Positions 12,267-23,360 of a DNA stretch of 64,000 bases are shown here, in pieces. This DNA is from Candidatus Gemmiger stercoripullorum (lineage in GTDB: Bacteria; Bacillota; Clostridia; Oscillospirales; Ruminococcaceae), in the NCBI GenBank assembly GCA_019119365.1, contig DWXD01000044.1, positions 1 through 64,000 on the forward strand, in the 5' to 3' direction. The stretch's first letter is position 1; each line of letters starts with the position of its first letter. Both the position numbers and the translations under genes were made by a program. Under the pieces are notes generated by a model. It had not been told where the DNA came from. It did not search any database and worked only from the letters and a program-made list of their open reading frames with translations.

Positions 12267-13673
12267 ATGAATGGGACCGATTGCGAACGAATCATTTCCG
12301 GGACAGAGCAGACCCTGCTTGCCTACTGCAAACGGCAGGGCCTGTTCAAGCCTGGCGACAGGGTCATTGCAGCCTGCTCCGGTGGGGCGGACTCGGTGGC
12401 CCTCTTGCTGTTTTTGCTGCGCTGCCGCCGCGAGCTTTCCATCGAGGTGCTCGCCACCCATGTCGACCACGGCCTGCGCGGCGAAGCATCGCAGGAGGAC
12501 GCCCGCTTTGTGGCGCGCCTGTGCCAGAAAAAAGGCGTGGAGCTGTTTTTGTATGACGCGCGCCGCGCGGGCGTGACCATCCCCGAACACCCCGGCGAGG
12601 ACTGGGCCCGCCGCCTGCGCTACGCCTGGTTCGACGAGCTGGCCGCGCGCGAGGAAGCCAAGATCGCCACCGCCCACACGCTGTCCGACCAGGCCGAGAC
12701 CGTGCTGCTGCGCCTGGCGCGCGGCACCGGCCTGCACGGGCTGGGCGGCATCCGCCCGCAGCGCGGCGTCTACCGGCGGCCGCTGCTGTGCCTGAGCCGC
12801 GCCGAGACCGAGGCATACTGCGCGGCGCTCGGGCAAAGATATGTGCAGGATGAAACGAACGACACCGGCCTCTACGCCCGCAACCGCGTCCGCCAGGGGG
12901 CCGTGCCGGCGCTGCAGAGCGTCAACCCTTCGGCCGAGCGGTGCATCGCCCGCCTGTGCGCGCAGATGCAGGAGCTGGATTCCTGGCTGACCGGCGAGGC
13001 CGCCGCGCTGCTGCAGGCCGCCGCCACCCCCCGCGGCTACGACATCCAAACGCTGCGCGAAGCCGAAGGCCCCGTGCTGGACGCCGCGCTGCACAGCCTG
13101 GTGGCCCCGGTGCGCGACGCCGAGGAAAAGTACGTCAGCCTGCTGCGCTTTCTGGTGCTCAAGGGCGAAGGCGCGCTGCAGCTGACGGCCGACGTCAGCT
13201 ACCGCGTGCAGAAATACGGCGGGGACAAACAGCTCGTGCGCATCTCGGCGGCGGGCGCTTTGCCGCCGCCCGCGCCGCCGCAGCCCGCTTTGCCCGGCGT
13301 TTACCGCCTGCCGGGCGGCTATGTGCTGTCTTTACAGGTCGAAAAGTATGAAGATTTTCTGAAAAATGCACCAATTTTCAAAAAAGACTTAACCTGTTGC
13401 GCGGATTATGCTAAAATAAACAAGAATGTTCTGCTGCGCACGCGCCGCCCCGGCGACGACTACCGCCCCTGCGGCCGCCATGTGCGCAAGACGCTCAAAA
13501 AATATTACAACGAGATCGCGGTGCCCACAGCCGAACGCCCGCTGCTGCCGCTGCTGGCGGACGGCAGCGAGGTGCTCTGGCTGTGGGGGTCCGGCTTTGC
13601 CGAAGGGCTTGCCCCGGACGACTACACGCGCGAGGTGCTCATCATCCGCACCGAAAAAACGGAGGGAACTTGA
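12267..13673 (+). CDS. tilS: tRNA(Ile)-lysidine synthase TilS
   Basis: Attaches lysine to C34 of the minor tRNA-Ile (CAU) using ATP, changing its decoding from AUG to AUA; essential in bacteria. The PP-loop ACSGGADSVALLLF is at about residue 37, followed by THVDHGLRG and the TAHTLSDQAETVLLRLARG motif. The C-terminal domain with RRPGDDYRPCGRHVRKTLKKY is present, so this is the full 468-residue type. Its stop is immediately followed by the hpt ATG, the classic tilS-hpt-ftsH order. Confidence 0.95.
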   Translation: MNGTDCERIISGTEQTLLAYCKRQGLFKPGDRVIAACSGGADSVALLLFLLRCRRELSIEVLATHVDHGLRGEASQEDARFVARLCQKKGVELFLYDARRAGVTIPEHPGEDWARRLRYAWFDELAAREEAKIATAHTLSDQAETVLLRLARGTGLHGLGGIRPQRGVYRRPLLCLSRAETEAYCAALGQRYVQDETNDTGLYARNRVRQGAVPALQSVNPSAERCIARLCAQMQELDSWLTGEAAALLQAAATPRGYDIQTLREAEGPVLDAALHSLVAPVRDAEEKYVSLLRFLVLKGEGALQLTADVSYRVQKYGGDKQLVRISAAGALPPPAPPQPALPGVYRLPGGYVLSLQVEKYEDFLKNAPIFKKDLTCCADYAKINKNVLLRTRRPGDDYRPCGRHVRKTLKKYYNEIAVPTAERPLLPLLADGSEVLWLWGSGFAEGLAPDDYTREVLIIRTEKTEGT

Positions 13674-14225
13674 ATGAAGCCCAACCACAAGGACATTGAC
13701 CATATCCTTGTCAGCGAAGAACAGCTCAAAGCCAAGGTCGCCGAACTTGGCGCGCAGATCAGCCGCGACTACGCCGGCCGGGACCTGCTGATGGTCTCCA
13801 TCCTCAAAGGCGCGGTCGTGTTCATGGCCGACCTCATGCGCGCCGTCACCATCCCCTGTGCAATTGACTTCATGGTGGTCTCCAGCTACGGCGGGGCCAA
13901 CACCTCCTCCACCGGGCTGGTCAAGATCATCAAGGACCTCGACCAGGACCTGACCGGCAAGGATGTGCTCATTGTCGAGGATATCCTGGACACCGGCATC
14001 ACGCTGTCCAACCTTGTGCCCATGCTGCAGCTGCGCAACCCCCGCAGCGTGCGGCTGTGTACGATCCTTTCCAAGCCCAGCCGCCGCAAGGCGGAGATCG
14101 CGCCCGATTACTGCGGCTTCGAGGTGCCGGATGAGTTCGTTGTCGGCTACGGGCTGGACTATGACGAGCGCTACCGCAACCTGCCCTATGTGGGCGTTCT
14201 GAAACCGGAGGTCTACAGCAAGTGA
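13674..14225 (+). CDS. hpt: Hypoxanthine phosphoribosyltransferase
   Basis: Salvages hypoxanthine and guanine to IMP and GMP with PRPP. The 183-residue protein shows the PRPP-binding loop VEDILDTGITLSNL at about residue 100, the flexible-loop region MVVSSYGGANTSSTG, and the C-terminal DEFVVGYGLDYDERYRNLP signature. The ATG directly follows the tilS stop, so the two are translationally coupled. Confidence 0.96.
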   Translation: MKPNHKDIDHILVSEEQLKAKVAELGAQISRDYAGRDLLMVSILKGAVVFMADLMRAVTIPCAIDFMVVSSYGGANTSSTGLVKIIKDLDQDLTGKDVLIVEDILDTGITLSNLVPMLQLRNPRSVRLCTILSKPSRRKAEIAPDYCGFEVPDEFVVGYGLDYDERYRNLPYVGVLKPEVYSK

Positions 14226-14258: not shown

Positions 14259-16352
14259 TTGCAGCATAAACCGCGCATGGGCGGCATCATCGTCACAGCC
14301 GTCCTCCTTGTCCTGGTGCTGGTCATGGCCACGACCTACAGCTCAATGGCCCAGGCCGGCGCCACCACCATGAAGATGTCCGAGGTCATGAACTGGTTCT
14401 CCGCCAACCAGGTCACCTACTTCAACCTCGACCTCAACACCGGCGAGATCGAACTGAGCCTGAAGGAAGGCGCCTACCCGCTGCCGGACGAAGCCGACCT
14501 GCAGGCGCAGCGCCCTTCGGGCGGGTTCCTCACCGACCTGTCCGGCCTTGAGGACGAAGGCCCCCAGAACGGCGGCATCGTCACCGTCACCTACAAGCTG
14601 CCCTACACGGCCTATTTCCTCGACTATGTGCAGGGGTATATCGACGCGTACAACGAAGCCAACCCCGACGCCCCCATGGAATACGACATGGTGGGCCTGC
14701 GCACCTCCATCCCCTGGTTTGAGATCCTGCTCTACGCCTTCATGATCGGCAGCGTCGTGCTGCTGTTCATGTCGATGTACCGCGGCGGCGCCGGGGGCGG
14801 CGGGCTGATGAACGTCGGCCGCGCCAAGGTCAAGGACCAGCAGGAAGGCCAGCGCAAGGCCACCTTTGCCGACGTTGCGGGCGCGGACGAGGAAAAAGCC
14901 GAACTGCAGGAGGTTGTGGAATTCCTCAAAGCCCCCAACAAGTTCAACTCGCTCGGCGCGCGCATCCCGCACGGCGTGCTGCTTGTCGGCCCCCCGGGCA
15001 CCGGCAAAACGCTGCTGGCCCGCGCCTGCGCGGGCGAGGCGGGCGTGCCGTTCTACGCGATCTCCGGCTCCGACTTCGTCGAGATGTATGTCGGCGTCGG
15101 CGCGTCCCGCGTGCGCGACCTGTTTGAAAAAGCCAAAAAGACGATGCCCTCCATCATCTTCATCGACGAGATCGACGCGGTCGGCCGCCAGCGCGGCGCG
15201 GGTCTCGGCGGCGGGCATGACGAGCGCGAACAGACGCTCAACCAGCTGCTTGTCGAGATGGACGGCTTCGACGCCAACGACGGCGTCATCGTCATGGCCG
15301 CCACCAACCGCGCGGACATCCTCGACAAAGCCCTGCTGCGCCCCGGCCGCTTTGACCGCCAGGTCTACGTCGGCCTGCCCGACGTCAAGGGCCGCGAAGC
15401 GATCCTGCGCGTGCACACCAAAAACAAGCCGCTCGGCCCCGACGTCGACCTCGGCACCATCGCCAAATCGACGGCCGGGTTCTCGGGCGCAGACCTTGAG
15501 AACCTTGTCAACGAGGCCGCCCTGCTGGCCGCCCGCAAGGGCAAGAAGGCCATCACCGAACCCGAGATCGAGGAAGCCTCGATCAAGGTCGTGGCCGGGC
15601 CGGAAAAGAAGAGCCGCGTCGTCACCGACAAGGAAAAGCGCCTGACCGCCTACCACGAGACCGGCCACGCCATCACCGGCTACTTCTGCAAGACGCACGA
15701 CCCCGTGCACCAGATCAGCATCATCCCGCGCGGCTCGGCCGGCGGCTTCACGATGTATCTGCCCGAAAAGGACCCCAGCTACGTCACCAAGACCGCCATG
15801 AGCGAAAACATCGTCTGCCTGCTGGGCGGCCGTGTGGCCGAGCAGCTCGTGCTGGACGATATCTCCACCGGCGCTTCCAACGACCTGGAACGCGCCACCG
15901 CCACCGCCCGCGCCATGGTCACGCGCTACGGCTTCTCGGAGCGGCTCGGCCCCGTCGTCTACGGCACCGACCCCGGCGAGACCTTCCTTGGCCGCGACTT
16001 CGGCCAGGGCCGCGGCTACAGCGAGAACATCGCCGCCGAGATCGACAACGAGATCCGCGATATCGTCGACGAATCCTACGAGACCGCCCGCCGCATCCTG
16101 ACCGAACACATGGACCAGCTGCACACCGTGGCCGCTGTGCTGATGGAGCGTGAGAAGATCAGCGGCGACGAGTTCAAGACCCTGATGGAGGGCGGCAAGC
16201 TGCCGCCGTTCGATCTGGGCAGCGGCAAGACCGCCGCCCAGACCCCCGCAACCCCCGCGCAAGACCCGGCCCCCGCGGCCCCGGCGCAGCCCGAAACGGA
16301 CGCCCCGGCCCCCGAAGCCCCCGCACCCGAAACACCCGAAGAAAATAACTGA
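14259..16352 (+). CDS. ftsH: ATP-dependent zinc metalloprotease FtsH
   Basis: Membrane AAA+ protease that degrades damaged and regulatory proteins, 697 residues. An N-terminal helix (about 7-28) and a second helix (about 150-170) flank an extracytoplasmic domain of about 120 residues. The AAA domain has [26 protein letters not shown] and the SRH region [20 protein letters not shown]. The zinc site is HETGH. The last 50 residues are a Pro/Ala/Glu-rich tail. The start is TTG at 14259, supported by AAGGAG at proper spacing. Confidence 0.97.
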
Positions 16353-16366
16353 GGTGGAATGAAATC

Positions 16367-17440
16367 ATGGATCAGAATTTTACCCTTATGGCACAGTCCC
16401 GCGCCAACTACTACACCGCGGGCAGCCCGGTACAGTTTGTCCGTGTCGAGCTGCTCAAAGGGGATGTCACCGGTGAAGTCGCCGTCTGCCTGACCTTCAA
16501 GAATGTGGGCACCGAGCCCCTGACCGGCCTCGTCATCCACTTCAAATGCAAGGACGCCGCCGGCCAGGTGCTGTGCGAGGACGACTTCTACTACGAAAAC
16601 CTCAACGCCCAGCCCGGCGACCTGTTCGGCAGCGACGACGCCGTCTTTGTGTCCGATACGCCGGTTTCCAGCGTCGAGACCGAGCAGGACCGCGCCTTCT
16701 TGAACGGCCGCGGCGTCGATTTGCGCGGCTACAAGCGCGTGCGCCTGCCGCAGCCGCGCGTGCTGCCCGGCTCCATCGCCAAAACGCTGCAGGCCCGCAC
16801 CGGCAACCCGCAGCTGACCTGCGTGCCCCAGGACACCGAATACGGCTGGTTCTGCGCCTGCGGCGCCTTCCACCCCAACGAGGAAGCTGCCGCCGCCTGC
16901 AGCGAGTGCGGCGGCGACCGCGCCTTCATCAAGGCGAGCCTGACCTCGATTTTGGAGGAAGCCCGCCGCGCGGCCGAACAGCAGCAGCGTGAGATCAACG
17001 CCGTGGCCGGTATGCAGCAGCCCGCCGCCCCGGCTGCCCCGGCCGACCCGGCGGCCGCCACCGCCGCGGCCGCGCAGGCGGCCATCGCCGCCGACGAGCC
17101 CGAACCGGAGGAGGAGCCCACCGCCCAGTTCGACCCCAGCCAGGCCACCAACGCCGAGATGGCGCGCGTGCAGCGCTACGCCCCCAACGGCCGCCTGTTT
17201 GACGACGAGGAGGACGAGGACGACGGCGGCACCCGCATGTTCGACACCGACGAAGAGGACGAGGACGACTACGAGGAAGAACGCCCCGCCAAGCGCCGCG
17301 GCCGCTACGCCGACGACGAGGAGGAGAGCGAGGACGATATCATGGCCGAGCGCATCATCCGCTGGGCCCCGCCCATCACCGCCATCGTCTGCGCGCTGAT
17401 CGTCGCCGTGTCGCTGATCTACTACTTCGTCATTGCCTGA
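16367..17440 (+). CDS. Zinc-ribbon protein with acidic linker and C-terminal membrane anchor
   Basis: I do not recognise a named family. The 357 residues fall into four parts. Residues 1-150 form a beta-rich domain with VAVCLTFKNVGTEPLTGLVIHFKCKD, resembling intracellular beta-sandwich domains. About 162-185 is a four-cysteine ribbon (CACG...CSECGG). About 190-325 is an Ala/Pro then strongly acidic linker (DDEEDEDDGG and similar). The end is one hydrophobic helix (AIVCALIVAVSLIYYFVIA) reaching the last residue. The layout predicts a tail-anchored protein facing the cytoplasm. It lies 14 bp after ftsH and before a strong terminator, so it is the last gene of the operon and may act at the membrane with FtsH (inference). 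Confidence 0.8.
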   Translation: MDQNFTLMAQSRANYYTAGSPVQFVRVELLKGDVTGEVAVCLTFKNVGTEPLTGLVIHFKCKDAAGQVLCEDDFYYENLNAQPGDLFGSDDAVFVSDTPVSSVETEQDRAFLNGRGVDLRGYKRVRLPQPRVLPGSIAKTLQARTGNPQLTCVPQDTEYGWFCACGAFHPNEEAAAACSECGGDRAFIKASLTSILEEARRAAEQQQREINAVAGMQQPAAPAAPADPAAATAAAAQAAIAADEPEPEEEPTAQFDPSQATNAEMARVQRYAPNGRLFDDEEDEDDGGTRMFDTDEEDEDDYEEERPAKRRGRYADDEEESEDDIMAERIIRWAPPITAIVCALIVAVSLIYYFVIA

Positions 17441-17470: not shown

Positions 17471-17505
17471 AAAAGCGCCGCCCGGTCCAGCCGGGCGGCG
17501 CTTTT
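17471..17505. terminator. Intrinsic terminator after the ftsH operon
   Basis: A perfect 15-bp stem (AAAAGCGCCGCCCGG / CCGGGCGGCGCTTTT) with a 5-nt loop. It closes the rightward run that began at RNase J. Confidence 0.88.
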
Positions 17506-17535: not shown

Positions 17536-17569
17536 CTTGCCAAACGGGTGTACTAGTGCTATAATACAC
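17536..17569 (+). promoter_or_regulatory. Promoter and YtrA-like operator of the Ytr-like operon
   Basis: TTGCCA, 17 nt, TATAAT (-10 at 17559-17564). An inverted repeat GTGTA (17548-17552) and TACAC (17565-17569), spaced 12 nt, brackets the -10. YtrA-subfamily GntR repressors bind sites of the AGTGTA-N13-TACACT kind, so this is a likely autoregulatory operator for the next gene. The promoter is seen directly; the operator role is inference. Confidence 0.75.
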
Positions 17570-17615: not shown

Positions 17616-17993
17616 ATGGTCAGCTTTCAGGGGCTGCGGTTCCATGACCGCACCCCGGTCTACCAGCAGGTGGCCGAATACCTCAAGCGGCAGATCCTGC
17701 TGGGCACGGTGCAGGACGGCGACCCGATGCCCAGCCGCCGCGAGCTGGCCGCCCAGACCGGCATCAACCCCAACACCGCCCAAAAAGCCTACCGCCTGAT
17801 GACCGAGGAGGGCTATGTCCGCACCGAGGGCAACAACGTCAGCACGGTCAGCCTCACGCCGGAGCGCCGCGCCTGGATCGAGGACGAACTGACCCGCGGC
17901 CTTGTGCAGCAGTTCGTGGCCGACGCCCGGGAAAATCATCTTTCTTACAAAAAAGTCATCAGCCTCATCAGCGAACTGTGGGGCGAGGAATAA
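17616..17993 (+). CDS. GntR-family repressor, YtrA subfamily
   Basis: A 125-residue transcription regulator with an N-terminal winged helix (RTPVYQQVAEYLKRQILLGTV, then PSRRELAAQTGINPNTAQKAYRLM, about residues 12-75). It has only a short C-terminal tail, the hallmark of the YtrA subfamily, which typically represses its own ABC-transporter operon. AAAGGAGG precedes the ATG. It is the first gene of the six-kilobase operon ending at 23582. Confidence 0.92.
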   Translation: MVSFQGLRFHDRTPVYQQVAEYLKRQILLGTVQDGDPMPSRRELAAQTGINPNTAQKAYRLMTEEGYVRTEGNNVSTVSLTPERRAWIEDELTRGLVQQFVADARENHLSYKKVISLISELWGEE

Positions 17994-18064
17994 ATCCGTT
18001 AGTTTGCTTTTTACCCTGTGCGTATGATGTGCGTGGTACACAAAGCCCCGCAAAGGAGGAAACC

Positions 18065-18835
18065 ATGAAACAGACCCTGCGCTATACCGCCTGGTGCTGG
18101 CGGCTGTGCCGCCGCCCGCTGGGCATGTGGCTTGCCCTGGGCGCGGCGGCCCAGGCCGTGCCGCTGCTGTGGGCCGCGTCCCGCCCGGCCAATGCTGCCT
18201 ACAGCTATGACTGGCTGCAAAACAGCGCCGGTACGCCGTTCGTCTTTGCGGTCTTCTACCTGGGTGCGGCGGTCGCCGCCCAGTGGCCGGTGCGCCAGGC
18301 GGCGGGCCGCAGCCGCGCCGCCTTCACCATCCTCACCTTCCGCATGCCCCGCCGCTGCCTGCTGGCCGGGCACATACTGAACACGCTGCTGGCGCTGTTT
18401 GCGGCCATGGCGGGGGAGCTGGCGCTGCTGTTCGCGCTCTGCCCGGCCGCGCTCGCCTTGCAGGACGCCGCCGCGGCCGCGTCCTTTGCGTTTGCGCTGC
18501 CCGCCGCCGGGCGGCTGTGGTGGGCCTGGGCAGGCAGCTACACGGTGCAGCTCCTGCTGCCTGTCACGGTGCCGGTGGCTGCAATGTGGGCGCTGGTGCT
18601 GGCCGTGCCCGCCGTGCTGGCTCCGGCCGTGGCGCTGCACCGCGGCGCGCACCGCCTGGCGGCCGCCGTGCTGGCGCTGGCCGCCGCGGGCTGCTGGGTT
18701 GGGCTGCTTTACCGCAACGGCGAACCGCTGTGCTCGCCGCTCACACTGGGGTTGGCGGCGGCGCTGGCGGCGCTGCTGGCGCTGACCGCGCTCTCCGCCC
18801 TCTGGGCGCTGCGCCGCGCCGAAATCGCCCGCTGA
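18065..18835 (+). CDS. Polytopic membrane protein, putative ABC permease subunit 1
   Basis: A 256-residue protein with about six hydrophobic segments and very few charges outside loops. The start is the ATG at 18065 behind AAAGGAGG, not the track's 17978. It resembles the second membrane protein at 20376: both open with a basic/aromatic amphipathic start (KQTLRYTAWCWRLCRRPL versus KRIAKLAAWHWALARKPF), have a YSYDWL or YATLYA extracytoplasmic patch, and share the TLPGPR/TFRMPR loop position. By context with the downstream ATPase it should form part of an ABC-2-like channel. That assignment is inference. Confidence 0.7.
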   Translation: MKQTLRYTAWCWRLCRRPLGMWLALGAAAQAVPLLWAASRPANAAYSYDWLQNSAGTPFVFAVFYLGAAVAAQWPVRQAAGRSRAAFTILTFRMPRRCLLAGHILNTLLALFAAMAGELALLFALCPAALALQDAAAAASFAFALPAAGRLWWAWAGSYTVQLLLPVTVPVAAMWALVLAVPAVLAPAVALHRGAHRLAAAVLALAAAGCWVGLLYRNGEPLCSPLTLGLAAALAALLALTALSALWALRRAEIAR

Positions 18836-18853
18836 CAGGGGAGGGAACGTTCA

Positions 18854-20362
18854 ATGCCTCAAAAGACAAACGCTGAAAAGCAAAAAAACAGACGCCCCTA
18901 CCGCGCCGCGCTGGTGGTTCTGGCGGCGGCGCTGGCCGTGTACGCGGCGCTGGCGGCCTTCCGCCTGGCCGGTTGGCCGCGCGGGCAGTTTGCCTTCACG
19001 GCCGCAAACGGCAGCGAGAGCGCCTGGCAGGGCTTCACGCTGTACACGGCGGTCGAATCCGGCAGGTCGCCCTTTGCGCTGCGGCTGGCGGCCCGCCTGC
19101 AGGACGGCGTGCTGGCCACCTGCTCCGTCCCGCCGCAGTCCGCGCAAAGCGGCTACAGCTACGCCGGTGTCCGCGAATTCCTCACGGTGCCTGCGGCGGA
19201 CCACCAAGCGCTGGACGCCGCCGCGGCCAAAACCGAAATAAGCAGCACAAGCGGCGCGTTTTTCCTGCAGCGCCGGTTTTACGGCCACGCCTACCTGACC
19301 GAGACCGACCGCGTGCAGGTGATGGAGGAGGTCACGTTCCAGGAGAACGGCCGCGTCATCGGTTCGGTGCGGCTGGACCTCGGCACAGTGAAGCTGCTGG
19401 AACCGGTCACGTTCTATGCCGAACTCTATGAGGACGCCGCGCCCCGGCGCATGGACAGCGACTACAGCCTGAACATTGATAACGGCCTGCCGCAAAGCTG
19501 GCCCGGCGAAACCGAGGAAGCTTACCGCCTGCAGTTCCTGCCCGCCGAAGACGCGGCCCTGATCGCCGTCGACCCGCTGCCGGGGTCGCCGCTTTCCTGC
19601 GGCGTCTACCGCGTGACCGAACTTTTGACCGAAGCCGAGGTCGCCGCCCTGCCCGCCGACACGGCGGTGGACGGCACGCCGATGACCGCGCTTTCCACGC
19701 CCTACGGCAGCGTTGAGCTGATCTGCCCGCTGGCGGCGGGCGAGACGGTCTGCCGCCTGCTGCCGGTGGAGGGCGGCCACGCGCTGCTGACCCGGCTGAC
19801 CACGGGCGCGTTCCGCCTCTATCTCTTTGACGGGGGCTGGCAGCTGCAGAGCGAACAGACGCTGCCCATCCGCCAAGACCCGGCGGCAAGCTACACGATG
19901 CCGGAGCGCCTGCGCGGGGACGAGCTTGTGCTGCAGCTGCAGAACGAGCAGGACCCCGAAGCCCCCGGCGATACCTGGGTGCTGCGCGTGAGCGGCGGGC
20001 AGCTGGCCGAAAGCATCTGCCTGCCCGGCGCGGCGCTGCCTGCCGCGGACGATACGGGCGGCCCGTGGCTGGCGGCCGCCGGGCTTAACGCGGACGCCAC
20101 CGCGCTGCTGACCGTGCAAACCGCCTGCCACACCGAGACCGCCCGCCTGCCCGGCGCGGGGCAAACGCTGCCCGCCAGCGCGCTGGTGGAGGACGGCTAC
20201 CTGCTGCGCGTGTGGCAGGGCGGCGTGTGCACGGCCGCCGGTACGCTGGCCGCCAACGTGCAGGCCAACTGGCGCGGCGATGTCTGGGGCGGCAGCCGCC
20301 AGCTCAACCTCAGCCTGCCCGCGCCGGGGGAAACCGCCGCCCTGCGCCGGTATTTTGAGTAA
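18854..20362 (+). CDS. Exported single-span protein of the Ytr-like operon, copy 1
   Basis: 502 residues, family not recognised. A basic N-terminus and one hydrophobic helix (about 18-40) predict a signal anchor with about 460 residues outside the cell. The ectodomain begins with a WQGFTLYTAVESG block and contains many short strands, suggesting a beta-propeller-like or beta-sandwich fold. It has no cysteine motif or recognisable catalytic signature. The second exported protein of the operon has LQGFTLQGRVEHSG at the same distance from its anchor and a shared GVYRV motif, so the two look like diverged paralogues. It lies 18 bp after the membrane-protein gene. Confidence 0.75.
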   Translation: MPQKTNAEKQKNRRPYRAALVVLAAALAVYAALAAFRLAGWPRGQFAFTAANGSESAWQGFTLYTAVESGRSPFALRLAARLQDGVLATCSVPPQSAQSGYSYAGVREFLTVPAADHQALDAAAAKTEISSTSGAFFLQRRFYGHAYLTETDRVQVMEEVTFQENGRVIGSVRLDLGTVKLLEPVTFYAELYEDAAPRRMDSDYSLNIDNGLPQSWPGETEEAYRLQFLPAEDAALIAVDPLPGSPLSCGVYRVTELLTEAEVAALPADTAVDGTPMTALSTPYGSVELICPLAAGETVCRLLPVEGGHALLTRLTTGAFRLYLFDGGWQLQSEQTLPIRQDPAASYTMPERLRGDELVLQLQNEQDPEAPGDTWVLRVSGGQLAESICLPGAALPAADDTGGPWLAAAGLNADATALLTVQTACHTETARLPGAGQTLPASALVEDGYLLRVWQGGVCTAAGTLAANVQANWRGDVWGGSRQLNLSLPAPGETAALRRYFE

Positions 20363-20375
20363 AGGGGGAAACGCT

Positions 20376-21203
20376 ATGAAACGCATTGCCAAACTGGCCG
20401 CCTGGCACTGGGCGCTGGCCCGCAAACCGTTTTTGGCGCTGTGCGCCGTTTTTGCCGCCCAGCAGCTCGCCCTGCTGCTGGCGGCGGCCGCCCTGCAGGC
20501 GAACATCGGCCACAGCTACGCCACGCTGTACGCCGCCTGCTGGCAGCCGCTGGCGTTTTTGCTGGGGCTGGCGGCGGCGCTGCTGGTGGCTTCGGCCGGG
20601 CTGTGGCGGCCCGGGGCCGCGCGCACCGGCACGGCGCTGCTCACGCTGCCCGGCCCGCGCTGGCATCTGGCGGCGGCGCAAAGCGCGCTCTGCGCGCTGC
20701 TGGCGCTGATCTTCACGGCCTGGCAGGTCGTTTTGTACGCCGCGTGCTATGTGCCGGTCACGGCGCTGCTCGCCGCCACTGCCGGCGCACAGCTCGCCAC
20801 GCCCGGCACCGTCTACTATGCGCAGATGGCCGCCGCCAGCACGCAGCCCGGTATGCCCGCCACCACCCTGTATGCGCAGGCGGCCCTGCAGCCGCTTTTC
20901 CAGGCGCTGGCCCCTGCGTTCCCGCTGGGGTGGGCGGCGCTGGCCGTGGGCTTTGCCTGCGTGGCTGTCCAGTCCGGCTGTCTGTTCTTCCACCGCGGGT
21001 GGGGGCGGGCGGCTTCGGCCGCGCTGTGGCTTTGCACCTGCGGCGGCGCGCTGCTCGCTGTGTACGGCGCCCGGCAGCTGCACCAATATGGCTTTGACCT
21101 CTACGGCGGGGCCCTGGTCGTCGGCCTCGGGGTCATGGCCGTGCCGCTGGCCGTTCAGCTGCCGTGGACGCTGCTGCGCCTGCGCCGCGGCGAGCTTTTG
21201 TAA
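20376..21203 (+). CDS. Polytopic membrane protein, putative ABC permease subunit 2
   Basis: 275 residues with about six hydrophobic segments. The start is the ATG at 20376 behind AAAGGGGG; the track's longer form (20280) is out of the family pattern. It is a likely paralogue of the 18065 gene, with matching amphipathic start and loop positions. It lies 13 bp after the first exported-protein gene and 15 bp before the second. Together with the 18065 product and the ATPase at 22629 it could form a heterodimeric ABC complex (inference). Confidence 0.7.
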   Translation: MKRIAKLAAWHWALARKPFLALCAVFAAQQLALLLAAAALQANIGHSYATLYAACWQPLAFLLGLAAALLVASAGLWRPGAARTGTALLTLPGPRWHLAAAQSALCALLALIFTAWQVVLYAACYVPVTALLAATAGAQLATPGTVYYAQMAAASTQPGMPATTLYAQAALQPLFQALAPAFPLGWAALAVGFACVAVQSGCLFFHRGWGRAASAALWLCTCGGALLAVYGARQLHQYGFDLYGGALVVGLGVMAVPLAVQLPWTLLRLRRGELL

Positions 21204-21218
21204 AGGAGGAAAAACGCG

Positions 21219-22613
21219 ATGAAAACCACCCGCAAACCCGGCCGCAGCCTGGCTGTGCTGGCACTGGCCGCCGCGGCGGTGCTGGCGGCGGCCGCCGTCT
21301 TCCACTATGCGGGGCGCGGCGTGCTCAACGCCCGCCTGATCGAGCCGCAGGGCGACCCCGCGGCGCTGCAGGGCTTTACGCTGCAGGGCCGGGTCGAGCA
21401 CAGCGGCAACGCGCGGACCACCTTTGCCGTGCAGGACGGCGGCTTTACCAGCGCGACCGAACTGGATACGGACGCCGATCCGCAGAGCTACGGCTTCGGT
21501 TCTGTCAGCTGGGGTACGTTGTGGACCGTGCTGCCGCAGGACCTGGACGCCGTCAACGCCGCGGCCGAGAGCAGCGGCGACACCCTTTACAGCCAGGCCA
21601 GCCGGCTTGTGCGCATCTGCACGCTCAACCTGCCGGACGGCAGCTGCGTGGCGTTCCCGGGCATGACCTGCGAGCTGGACGAGCCTGTCCAGGTCGCCGC
21701 TTACTGGGACGAACTGCGCGGCGGCTGGCAGGCCTGGCGCGACGCCGCCGACCCCGGGGCCCTGCCCGACGGCCCGCAGCTCTCCTTTGAAACGCCGCGC
21801 TGGCAGGGGCATTACTGCTTTGTCTGGCCGCAGTCCACCGACCGGATGACCGCCGGGGTCTACCGCGTTGACCAGGCGCTGTCCGCCGCCGAGGCGGACG
21901 CGCAGGACGGAAGCCAGACCCCCGCCGCCGGGGGAAGCTATGGGGCCGTCAGCTGCCTGTATGCGCCGCCCGAAGCCGCCCGCGTGCTGGCCTGCCTGCC
22001 CGCCGGGGATCTGATGGGGGTGCTGTACCTGGACGCGGAAAACACAATGCTGCTCGACTTCGTCAGTCAGGACGGCCGCTGCGTTGAACAGTATCCGCTT
22101 GCCGCCCAGGTCGACCCGAGCACGGCGTACGCCGAACGGCTGCCCTGCCAGCGCGAAGGGCAGGCGGCTTTCCTGGCCGGCTGCATGGCGGGGGAAGAAG
22201 TACAATTGTGGAAACATCTGGTCGTCGTACAGGTGGAGAACGGCCGGGTGAGCCGGCTGTACAATGAGGCTTATGCCCCCGCGCGCACCGCGCTGGGGAA
22301 CGAGAGCTTCGGCGGAGACCTGTGCCTGGCCCAGCTGGACGGCACCGGCGACCGCCTGCTGCTGGTGGAGGAAGCCTATGATGTCTGGCGCTGGACCGTG
22401 CGCGGGTACGAGGAACGCGCCATGACCAAGAACTGCTACCTGACTGTGCAGGATACGGCCGAAGGCAAGATGCTGTACAGCGCCAAAATCAAGACCGACC
22501 AGCTCAGCGGCTGGGGTTGGGGAAGCATGCACGGCCATGTGTACAATGCGTTGGACGCCCTGCACACGCTGAGCGCCAGCTCCTATATTGATTTCCCGGA
22601 TCTTGCCGAATAA
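21219..22613 (+). CDS. Exported single-span protein of the Ytr-like operon, copy 2
   Basis: 464 residues with a basic start (MKTTRKPGRS), one hydrophobic helix (about 10-32) and a large outer domain. The motif LQGFTLQGRVEHSGN directly after the anchor parallels copy 1. The C-terminal half has several aromatic-rich strands (WRWTVRGYEERAMTKNCYLTV) suggesting repeated beta blades. No enzyme motif is visible. AAAGGAGG precedes the ATG. Its role could be ligand sensing or coupling to the envelope, as proposed for accessory proteins of other Ytr-like systems, but this cannot be shown here. Confidence 0.75.
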   Translation: MKTTRKPGRSLAVLALAAAAVLAAAAVFHYAGRGVLNARLIEPQGDPAALQGFTLQGRVEHSGNARTTFAVQDGGFTSATELDTDADPQSYGFGSVSWGTLWTVLPQDLDAVNAAAESSGDTLYSQASRLVRICTLNLPDGSCVAFPGMTCELDEPVQVAAYWDELRGGWQAWRDAADPGALPDGPQLSFETPRWQGHYCFVWPQSTDRMTAGVYRVDQALSAAEADAQDGSQTPAAGGSYGAVSCLYAPPEAARVLACLPAGDLMGVLYLDAENTMLLDFVSQDGRCVEQYPLAAQVDPSTAYAERLPCQREGQAAFLAGCMAGEEVQLWKHLVVVQVENGRVSRLYNEAYAPARTALGNESFGGDLCLAQLDGTGDRLLLVEEAYDVWRWTVRGYEERAMTKNCYLTVQDTAEGKMLYSAKIKTDQLSGWGWGSMHGHVYNALDALHTLSASSYIDFPDLAE

Positions 22614-22628
22614 AAGGAGGGGACTGCA

Positions 22629-23360
22629 ATGATCGAAGTCAAGGACCTGAAAAAGACCTGGCGGCGCCGCGGCAAGCCGGTCGGCCTGCTGGGCGCGAGC
22701 TTTACGGTGCCAAACGGGCAGATCGTAGGCGTGCTGGGCGACAACGGCGCAGGCAAAACCACGCTGCTGCGCACGATGGCCGGGCTTTTGCCCGCGCAGG
22801 GCGGCACGGCGCTGTTCGACGGCCGCCCCGCCGCCAGCCAGTACGAGCGGCTCAGCTTCATCACCGGCGAAGGCAGCTACTACCCCGCCATGACGGTGGG
22901 GGAGTACGGCGCGTTTTTGGCCGACCTGCACCCGGCGTTCGACCCGGCGCGCTACGCGGCGTTTTTGCAGTTTTTCTCCCTGGCCGAAACCGACCGCATC
23001 GGCCACCTTTCCACCGGGCAGAAAGCGCGGGTGGAGCTGGCCGCCGGGTTTGCCAAGCGGGCGGACTATTACCTGATGGACGAGCCGTTTTTGGGCAAGG
23101 ACGCCTTCACCCGCAAGGACGTTCTCAAGCTGATGAGCGGCGTGCTGCACGGCGGCGAGACCATTTTGCTGACGACGCATTATCTGGATGATGTGGAGCA
23201 GTTTTTGGACCGCGTTCTTGTGCTGCATGACGGCGTCATCGCCGATGATTTCCTCATGGAGGACCTGCAGCAGAGCGGCGAAACGCTGCTGGCCCGCCTG
23301 GGCCGCACCTGCGGGTGGGACCCCGCGCGCTACCTGCAGTTCGGCCGGGGGGAGGGGTGA
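22629..23360 (+). CDS. ABC transporter ATPase, YtrB-like
   Basis: A 243-residue nucleotide-binding subunit. Walker A is GDNGAGKTTLLR (about residue 39), the signature is HLSTGQKARVEL (threonine replacing the second position of LSGGQ), Walker B plus catalytic acid is YYLMDEPF, and the H-loop is LLTTHYLDD. All functional positions look present. The LSTGQ signature and the long spacing MTVGEYGAFLADLHPAFD are typical of Ytr/GntR-linked ATPases. It is the only ATPase of the operon and would pair with the two membrane proteins. Confidence 0.9.
   Translation: MIEVKDLKKTWRRRGKPVGLLGASFTVPNGQIVGVLGDNGAGKTTLLRTMAGLLPAQGGTALFDGRPAASQYERLSFITGEGSYYPAMTVGEYGAFLADLHPAFDPARYAAFLQFFSLAETDRIGHLSTGQKARVELAAGFAKRADYYLMDEPFLGKDAFTRKDVLKLMSGVLHGGETILLTTHYLDDVEQFLDRVLVLHDGVIADDFLMEDLQQSGETLLARLGRTCGWDPARYLQFGRGEG

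Follow-up and report, generated by a model that had tools for sequence, protein, structure and literature searches.

What does the protein encoded directly behind ftsH in Candidatus Gemmiger stercoripullorum do, and does its position tell us who its partner is? The window (the whole stretch of DNA analysed, 64,000 nucleotides) holds at 16367-17440 an intact ORF, here called X, that starts with ATG 14 bp past the ftsH stop codon and encodes 357 residues plus stop. Is it a gene at all? Codons 1-198 compared with nine congeners give dN/dS values of 0.03-0.29, which is purifying selection, and X is single copy in 12 of 12 Gemmiger genomes of a high-completeness set; of 35 further-ranging genomes of its own genus, which vary in completeness, 33 have it, each once. 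X is thus a real gene. A second copy was not found at E <= 0.001 in its own genome, which is 90% complete. The product is acidic (pI 4.3), and searches of Pfam and NCBIfam gave no fitting model and no match to an unrelated function, only low-complexity matches. X is an undescribed, clade-specific protein in Gemmiger and related gut bacteria, with the following parts.

16367..17440, + strand: complete ORF for the tail-anchored zinc-finger protein X (357 aa), supported by purifying selection and orthologues
16367..16759, + strand: beta-sandwich head, residues 1-131, an ApaG/FxLYD-like Ig fold by weak similarity (AlphaFold2, Foldseek)
16841..16930, + strand: zinc finger, residues 159-188, W161-F-C163-x-C165-G ... 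C178-x-x-C181-G, RanBP2-like, from conserved cysteines
16961..17353, + strand: acidic low-complexity linker, residues 199-329, probably disordered, from composition and identity between genera
17108..17131, + strand: linker motif copy 1, EEEPTAQF (Thr252), a weaker form that lacks Arg at +1
17219..17242, + strand: linker motif copy 2, DDGGTRMF, the conserved acidic-x-T-[RQ]-hydrophobic form, kept in ftsH-linked linkers
17354..17440, + strand: C-terminal membrane helix, residues 330-357, core IIRWAPPITAxxCA, from hydropathy and core identity

The original prediction had described a beta-rich domain, a CxC...CxxC ribbon and a very acidic linker, with a membrane helix at the end, and all four are there. 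AlphaFold2, given an alignment of 40 relatives, models residues 1-198 with a pLDDT of 94.6 and a pTM of 0.87 as ten strands (within residues 1-126) followed by the finger and a helix; the head alone reaches a pLDDT of 93.2. What does this head resemble? Foldseek with the two models found no PDB structure at E <= 1e-3, and a sequence search of solved structures with X gave nothing significant. The top matches of the head are ApaG domains (best 1xq4, E 5.8e-3, TM-score 0.42-0.46), with POLDIP2, which has an ApaG-type fold, among the low-ranking ones. The Pfam ApaG (DUF525) profile matched none of the 40 family members at E up to 1, and the SLAP, FxLYD and DUF5780 profiles gave sub-threshold matches in 3-5 of 40 relatives (best E-values between 7e-5 and 4e-3; the relative L032 matches DUF5780 below the family cut-off) and left X itself unmatched.

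The four cysteines of the ribbon (C163-x-C165 ... C178-x-x-C181) are invariant in the 40 relatives, and the finger has a mean pairwise identity of 73% between genera; it presumably binds zinc. The pattern W-x-C...C...N/H...C-x-x-C-G recalls RanBP2-type fingers such as that of ZNF265/ZRANB2, whose consensus is W-x-C-x(2,4)-C-x3-N-x6-C-x2-C. The match to the ZNF265 structure 1n0z is a weak profile match (E 0.18), and the zf-RanBP Pfam profile matched none of 40 members. We do not place X in the RanBP2 type, as its first spacing is CxC and not two to four residues, and Gemmiger has His for the Asn. The linker carries 39 Asp/Glu within residues 199-331, 27 of them within the 50 residues 277-326. 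The top 19-residue Kyte-Doolittle window (2.71) covers residues 339-357, the very C terminus, and the sequence is hydrophobic from about residue 330. With a single helix at its extreme C terminus and a folded head from the N terminus onward, X is a C-tail-anchored membrane protein; post-translational insertion and an N-in topology are predicted, so that head and finger would face the cytoplasm.

Is this layout, as the original prediction held, unusual in bacteria? The architecture is real, but the claim holds only in part, as head, ribbon and membrane helix are also found together across a wider family of clostridial proteins. Head-and-finger homologues occur in other clostridia and in one genome labelled Bacilli, and a search with one sequence alone already gives significant homology between X and this distant family (8.8e-9 and 3.3e-7). 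Distant relatives run from head and finger through a charged linker and a membrane helix to domains outside the cell: LRR and TPR by Pfam, and RCC1-like, WG-like and YD-like repeats by eye. Those at L031, L032, L097-L103 and L113 share head, CxC...CxxC finger and membrane helix with X; unlike X they have basic or charged linkers, large extracellular C-terminal domains and no ftsH adjacency, and ftsH was absent from the flanks fetched for the distant relatives. The broad family (L097:1-7752; L031, L032, L098, L099, L101, L102, L113) occurs in tandem in Intestinimonas, and no family model for it was found.

How constant, then, is the neighbourhood? The local features are these.

12267..13673, + strand: tilS, conserved block
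13674..14225, + strand: hpt (hypoxanthine phosphoribosyltransferase), conserved block
14259..16352, + strand: ftsH (AAA + peptidase M41), ending 14 bp upstream of X
17475..17505, + strand: GC-rich hairpin GCGCCGCCCGG-TCCAG-CCGGGCGGCGC then TTTT, read from the sequence

We take the first two to be tilS and hpt from the known tilS-hpt-ftsH order. X is probably co-transcribed with ftsH, and the hairpin would be the probable end of the ftsH transcript; a terminator scan that demands a longer T run does not list it. Past the hairpin, at 17537-17565, lies a promoter-like site (11/12) for the next gene. Beyond it, positions 17616-23360 of the window encode a GntR-type regulator, pairs of unannotated membrane or exported-looking proteins and an ABC ATPase, with four of six proteins lacking a Pfam match at E <= 0.001.

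A survey of ftsH neighbours bears out the adjacency widely. X lies directly 3' of ftsH in eight genus codes (g1, g32, g35, g40, g42, g44, g64, g85), that is, in Gemmiger and seven further ones, with gaps mostly of 1-50 nt and up to 263. On its other side X meets, in several genera, a second pair of genes, which we named parE and parC from our own reading of the sequences: the order ftsH-X-parE(-parC) occurs in g40, g44, g64 and L090/L091, with X-parE gaps in ftsH-linked blocks mostly of 100-370 nt, longer than on the ftsH side. No parE was found in the roughly 5 kb downstream of X in Gemmiger (g1), in g85 (L117) or in the g32-like loci L093-L095 (L093 being placed in g32 by an identical protein), as judged on flanks of about 5-6 kb and, for several loci, of about 1.5 kb. 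In g49, parE-parC come after X, and ftsH sits at another place with other genes downstream; five of seven g49 copies (L106, L107, L110-L112) lack linker and membrane helix, and two (L105, L108) retain the helix away from ftsH. Linker and helix are retained in all complete ftsH-linked copies. In two genera where no X orthologue was found there (L133, L137), parE directly follows ftsH. In a quick tree of head plus finger, three groups are each set apart by one branch: ftsH-linked copies with support 83, g49 copies with 94 and distant relatives with 99. The ancestral order that this makes most economical is ftsH-X-parE-parC, and the fuller order would be tilS-hpt-ftsH-X-parE-parC. X would have stood between ftsH and parE-parC in that order, and therefore its linkage to ftsH may simply be inherited; adjacency by itself says less than it might seem to.

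Is X then an adaptor or presenter for FtsH, as the original prediction suggested from its placement? The strict adjacency, the short gaps and the tail-anchored form of every complete ftsH-linked copy stand for this idea; against it, parE-parC borders X in several genera and the head-and-ribbon relatives live apart from ftsH. The membrane helix adds a further point. Its core, IIRWAPPITAxxCA, has a mean identity between genera of 64% (11 representatives), above that of the head (55%) and the linker (18%). The membrane helices of FtsH itself (TM1 20%, TM2 33% identity, in four genomes only) are not conserved in step with it, which tells against the adaptor idea as far as four FtsH sequences can. 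Conservation of the helix core beyond that of the head is one new feature of X; the other is the acidic T-[R/Q]-hydrophobic motif of its linker.

This motif stands in a poorly conserved linker. Every complete ftsH-linked linker has acidic-x-T-[RQ]-hydrophobic. A script counted it in 55 of 57 distinct linkers, compared with about 5 of 57 after shuffling; of the other two, L109 has a variant recognised by eye, and L039, a distant relative with LRR, does not belong to the set. For the narrower form, TR plus two hydrophobics, there are 73 occurrences, and shuffles yield 1.9 +/- 1.35. These motif counts, like the Thr and Ser counts below, are drawn from related sequences and hence not independent. 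The position is occupied by Thr 92 times and by Ser twice, a threonine-specific conserved site as expected of a phosphoprotein linked to a PASTA kinase and FHA proteins, and the genome encodes both a PASTA kinase and FHA proteins. The DDGGTRMF-type form matches X alone in its own genome. Eight whole genomes were scanned with DNA patterns for two motif forms; the patterns cover part of the motif only and can miss copies. Four genomes gave X, and two further ones gave matches at two unrelated places in all, one encoding a Clp-type ATPase that looks ClpB-like by eye, the other a doubtful ORF. The forms searched are thus near absent from other proteins of these genomes, and the motif does not appear to be a general kinase/FHA signature there. 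Nor does the X site match the one enriched phospho-Thr motif of Clostridioides difficile, GXT (PMC9674922). Elsewhere in the genome (L125:5143-10278, G000 contig C2) lies an FHA cluster comprising FHA-FHA-ABC ATPase, a vWA-FHA protein, a short Cys-rich FHA-like protein and a DivIVA-like coiled coil. Its layout is reminiscent of Rv1747-type FHA-ABC systems.

How might these parts work together? The conserved helix, the motif and the tight ftsH linkage favour, on sequence grounds, a membrane scaffold working with FtsH. From them we infer, tentatively and at somewhat less than an even chance, that X is a membrane-tethered binding scaffold, most plausibly at FtsH, whose motif docks a partner and may do so in a phospho-Thr-dependent way. 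Head and finger would bind a client, the acidic linker would give X reach, and the conserved helix core would hold it at a specific site in the membrane, most plausibly FtsH. The acidic-T-[RQ]-hydrophobic motif would dock the partner, possibly only when its threonine is phosphorylated, for instance by the PASTA kinase, and is then read by an FHA protein. X could so present clients to FtsH, or it could restrain FtsH. The phospho-switch is hypothetical: the strict threonine, a genome that encodes both PASTA kinase and FHA proteins, and the precedent of ReoM suggest it, and the C. difficile motif lends it no support. We consider unlikely the more specific version, in which X is an FtsH accessory and phosphorylation of the repeated motif by the PASTA kinase gates client delivery; if it were true, a cell-wall signal would control membrane proteolysis in gut Clostridia.

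Could X do all this without FtsH? A membrane-tethered scaffold or sensor independent of FtsH, kept in place by inertia in an old ftsH-X-parE-parC neighbourhood, is a reading we likewise hold at somewhat less than an even chance, and a helper of FtsH and an inherited neighbourhood are about equally likely. Several genera have X flanked by both ftsH and parE-parC, in g49 the ftsH side is gone and X still sits with parE-parC, and the distant head-and-finger relatives are off ftsH and carry LRR, TPR, RCC1-like or WG-like C-terminal domains. However, at least three genera have a broken link to parE, against one (g49) with a broken link to ftsH, and the gaps are shorter on the ftsH side. Alternatively, X may be a client of FtsH, removed by it and co-transcribed so that both are kept in balance; this would suit a membrane-anchored, cytosol-facing protein encoded beside ftsH, but the strong conservation of the head, the finger and the core of the helix demands a role for X in its own right and the linker motif would be left unexplained, which makes the idea quite improbable. 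Least probable of all, and by our estimate very unlikely, is a role with topoisomerase IV or in chromosome segregation, with X tethering ParE/ParC or DNA to the membrane: X does lie directly upstream of parE-parC in g49, g40, g44, g64 and L090/L091, and POLDIP2 is reported to bind DNA replication and repair partners (in an excerpt of PMC8138528), but X is fully conserved in Gemmiger, g32 and g85, where parE is absent within 5 kb, and its membrane helix is lost in most copies that sit with parE and without ftsH.

Being single-copy and ftsH-linked, with a near-unique motif and a conserved helix, X offers a concrete handle on how FtsH may be regulated in these bacteria. We know of no described FtsH adaptor in Gemmiger-type gut bacteria, and a full-text literature search for FtsH with Faecalibacterium and zinc ribbon found nothing.

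Which known systems does X recall? LapB/YciM, the E. coli FtsH adaptor for LpxC, resembles the predicted layout of X in spanning the membrane once and in having cytosolic domains as well as a zinc-binding module. LapB has its single helix at the N terminus, followed by TPR repeats and a rubredoxin-type module, and its gene is not an ftsH neighbour. X has a C-terminal helix, a beta-sandwich, a CxC...CxxC finger and no TPR match; we therefore do not place it in the LapB/YciM family, and we liken the two by architecture, not by homology. An excerpt of PMC9356133 describes LapB as acting with FtsH. ApaG proteins (bacterial ApaG, POLDIP2/PDIP38, FBXO3) provide the nearest fold match of the head, unlike X in the low TM-score and the unmatched Pfam profile. 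One of them, PDIP38, modulates the AAA+ protease CLPXP, according to an excerpt of PMC7647994. The linker threonine has its proposed analogue in ReoM/IreB. Here too we compare unlike proteins, as ReoM is unrelated and acts on ClpCP, and phosphorylation of X is putative. As for a zinc finger or a tail anchor in ApaG proteins, we know of none. What ReoM contributes is a Firmicute route from a threonine kinase to an AAA+ protease, as it links the PASTA kinase to ClpCP (PMC7286690).
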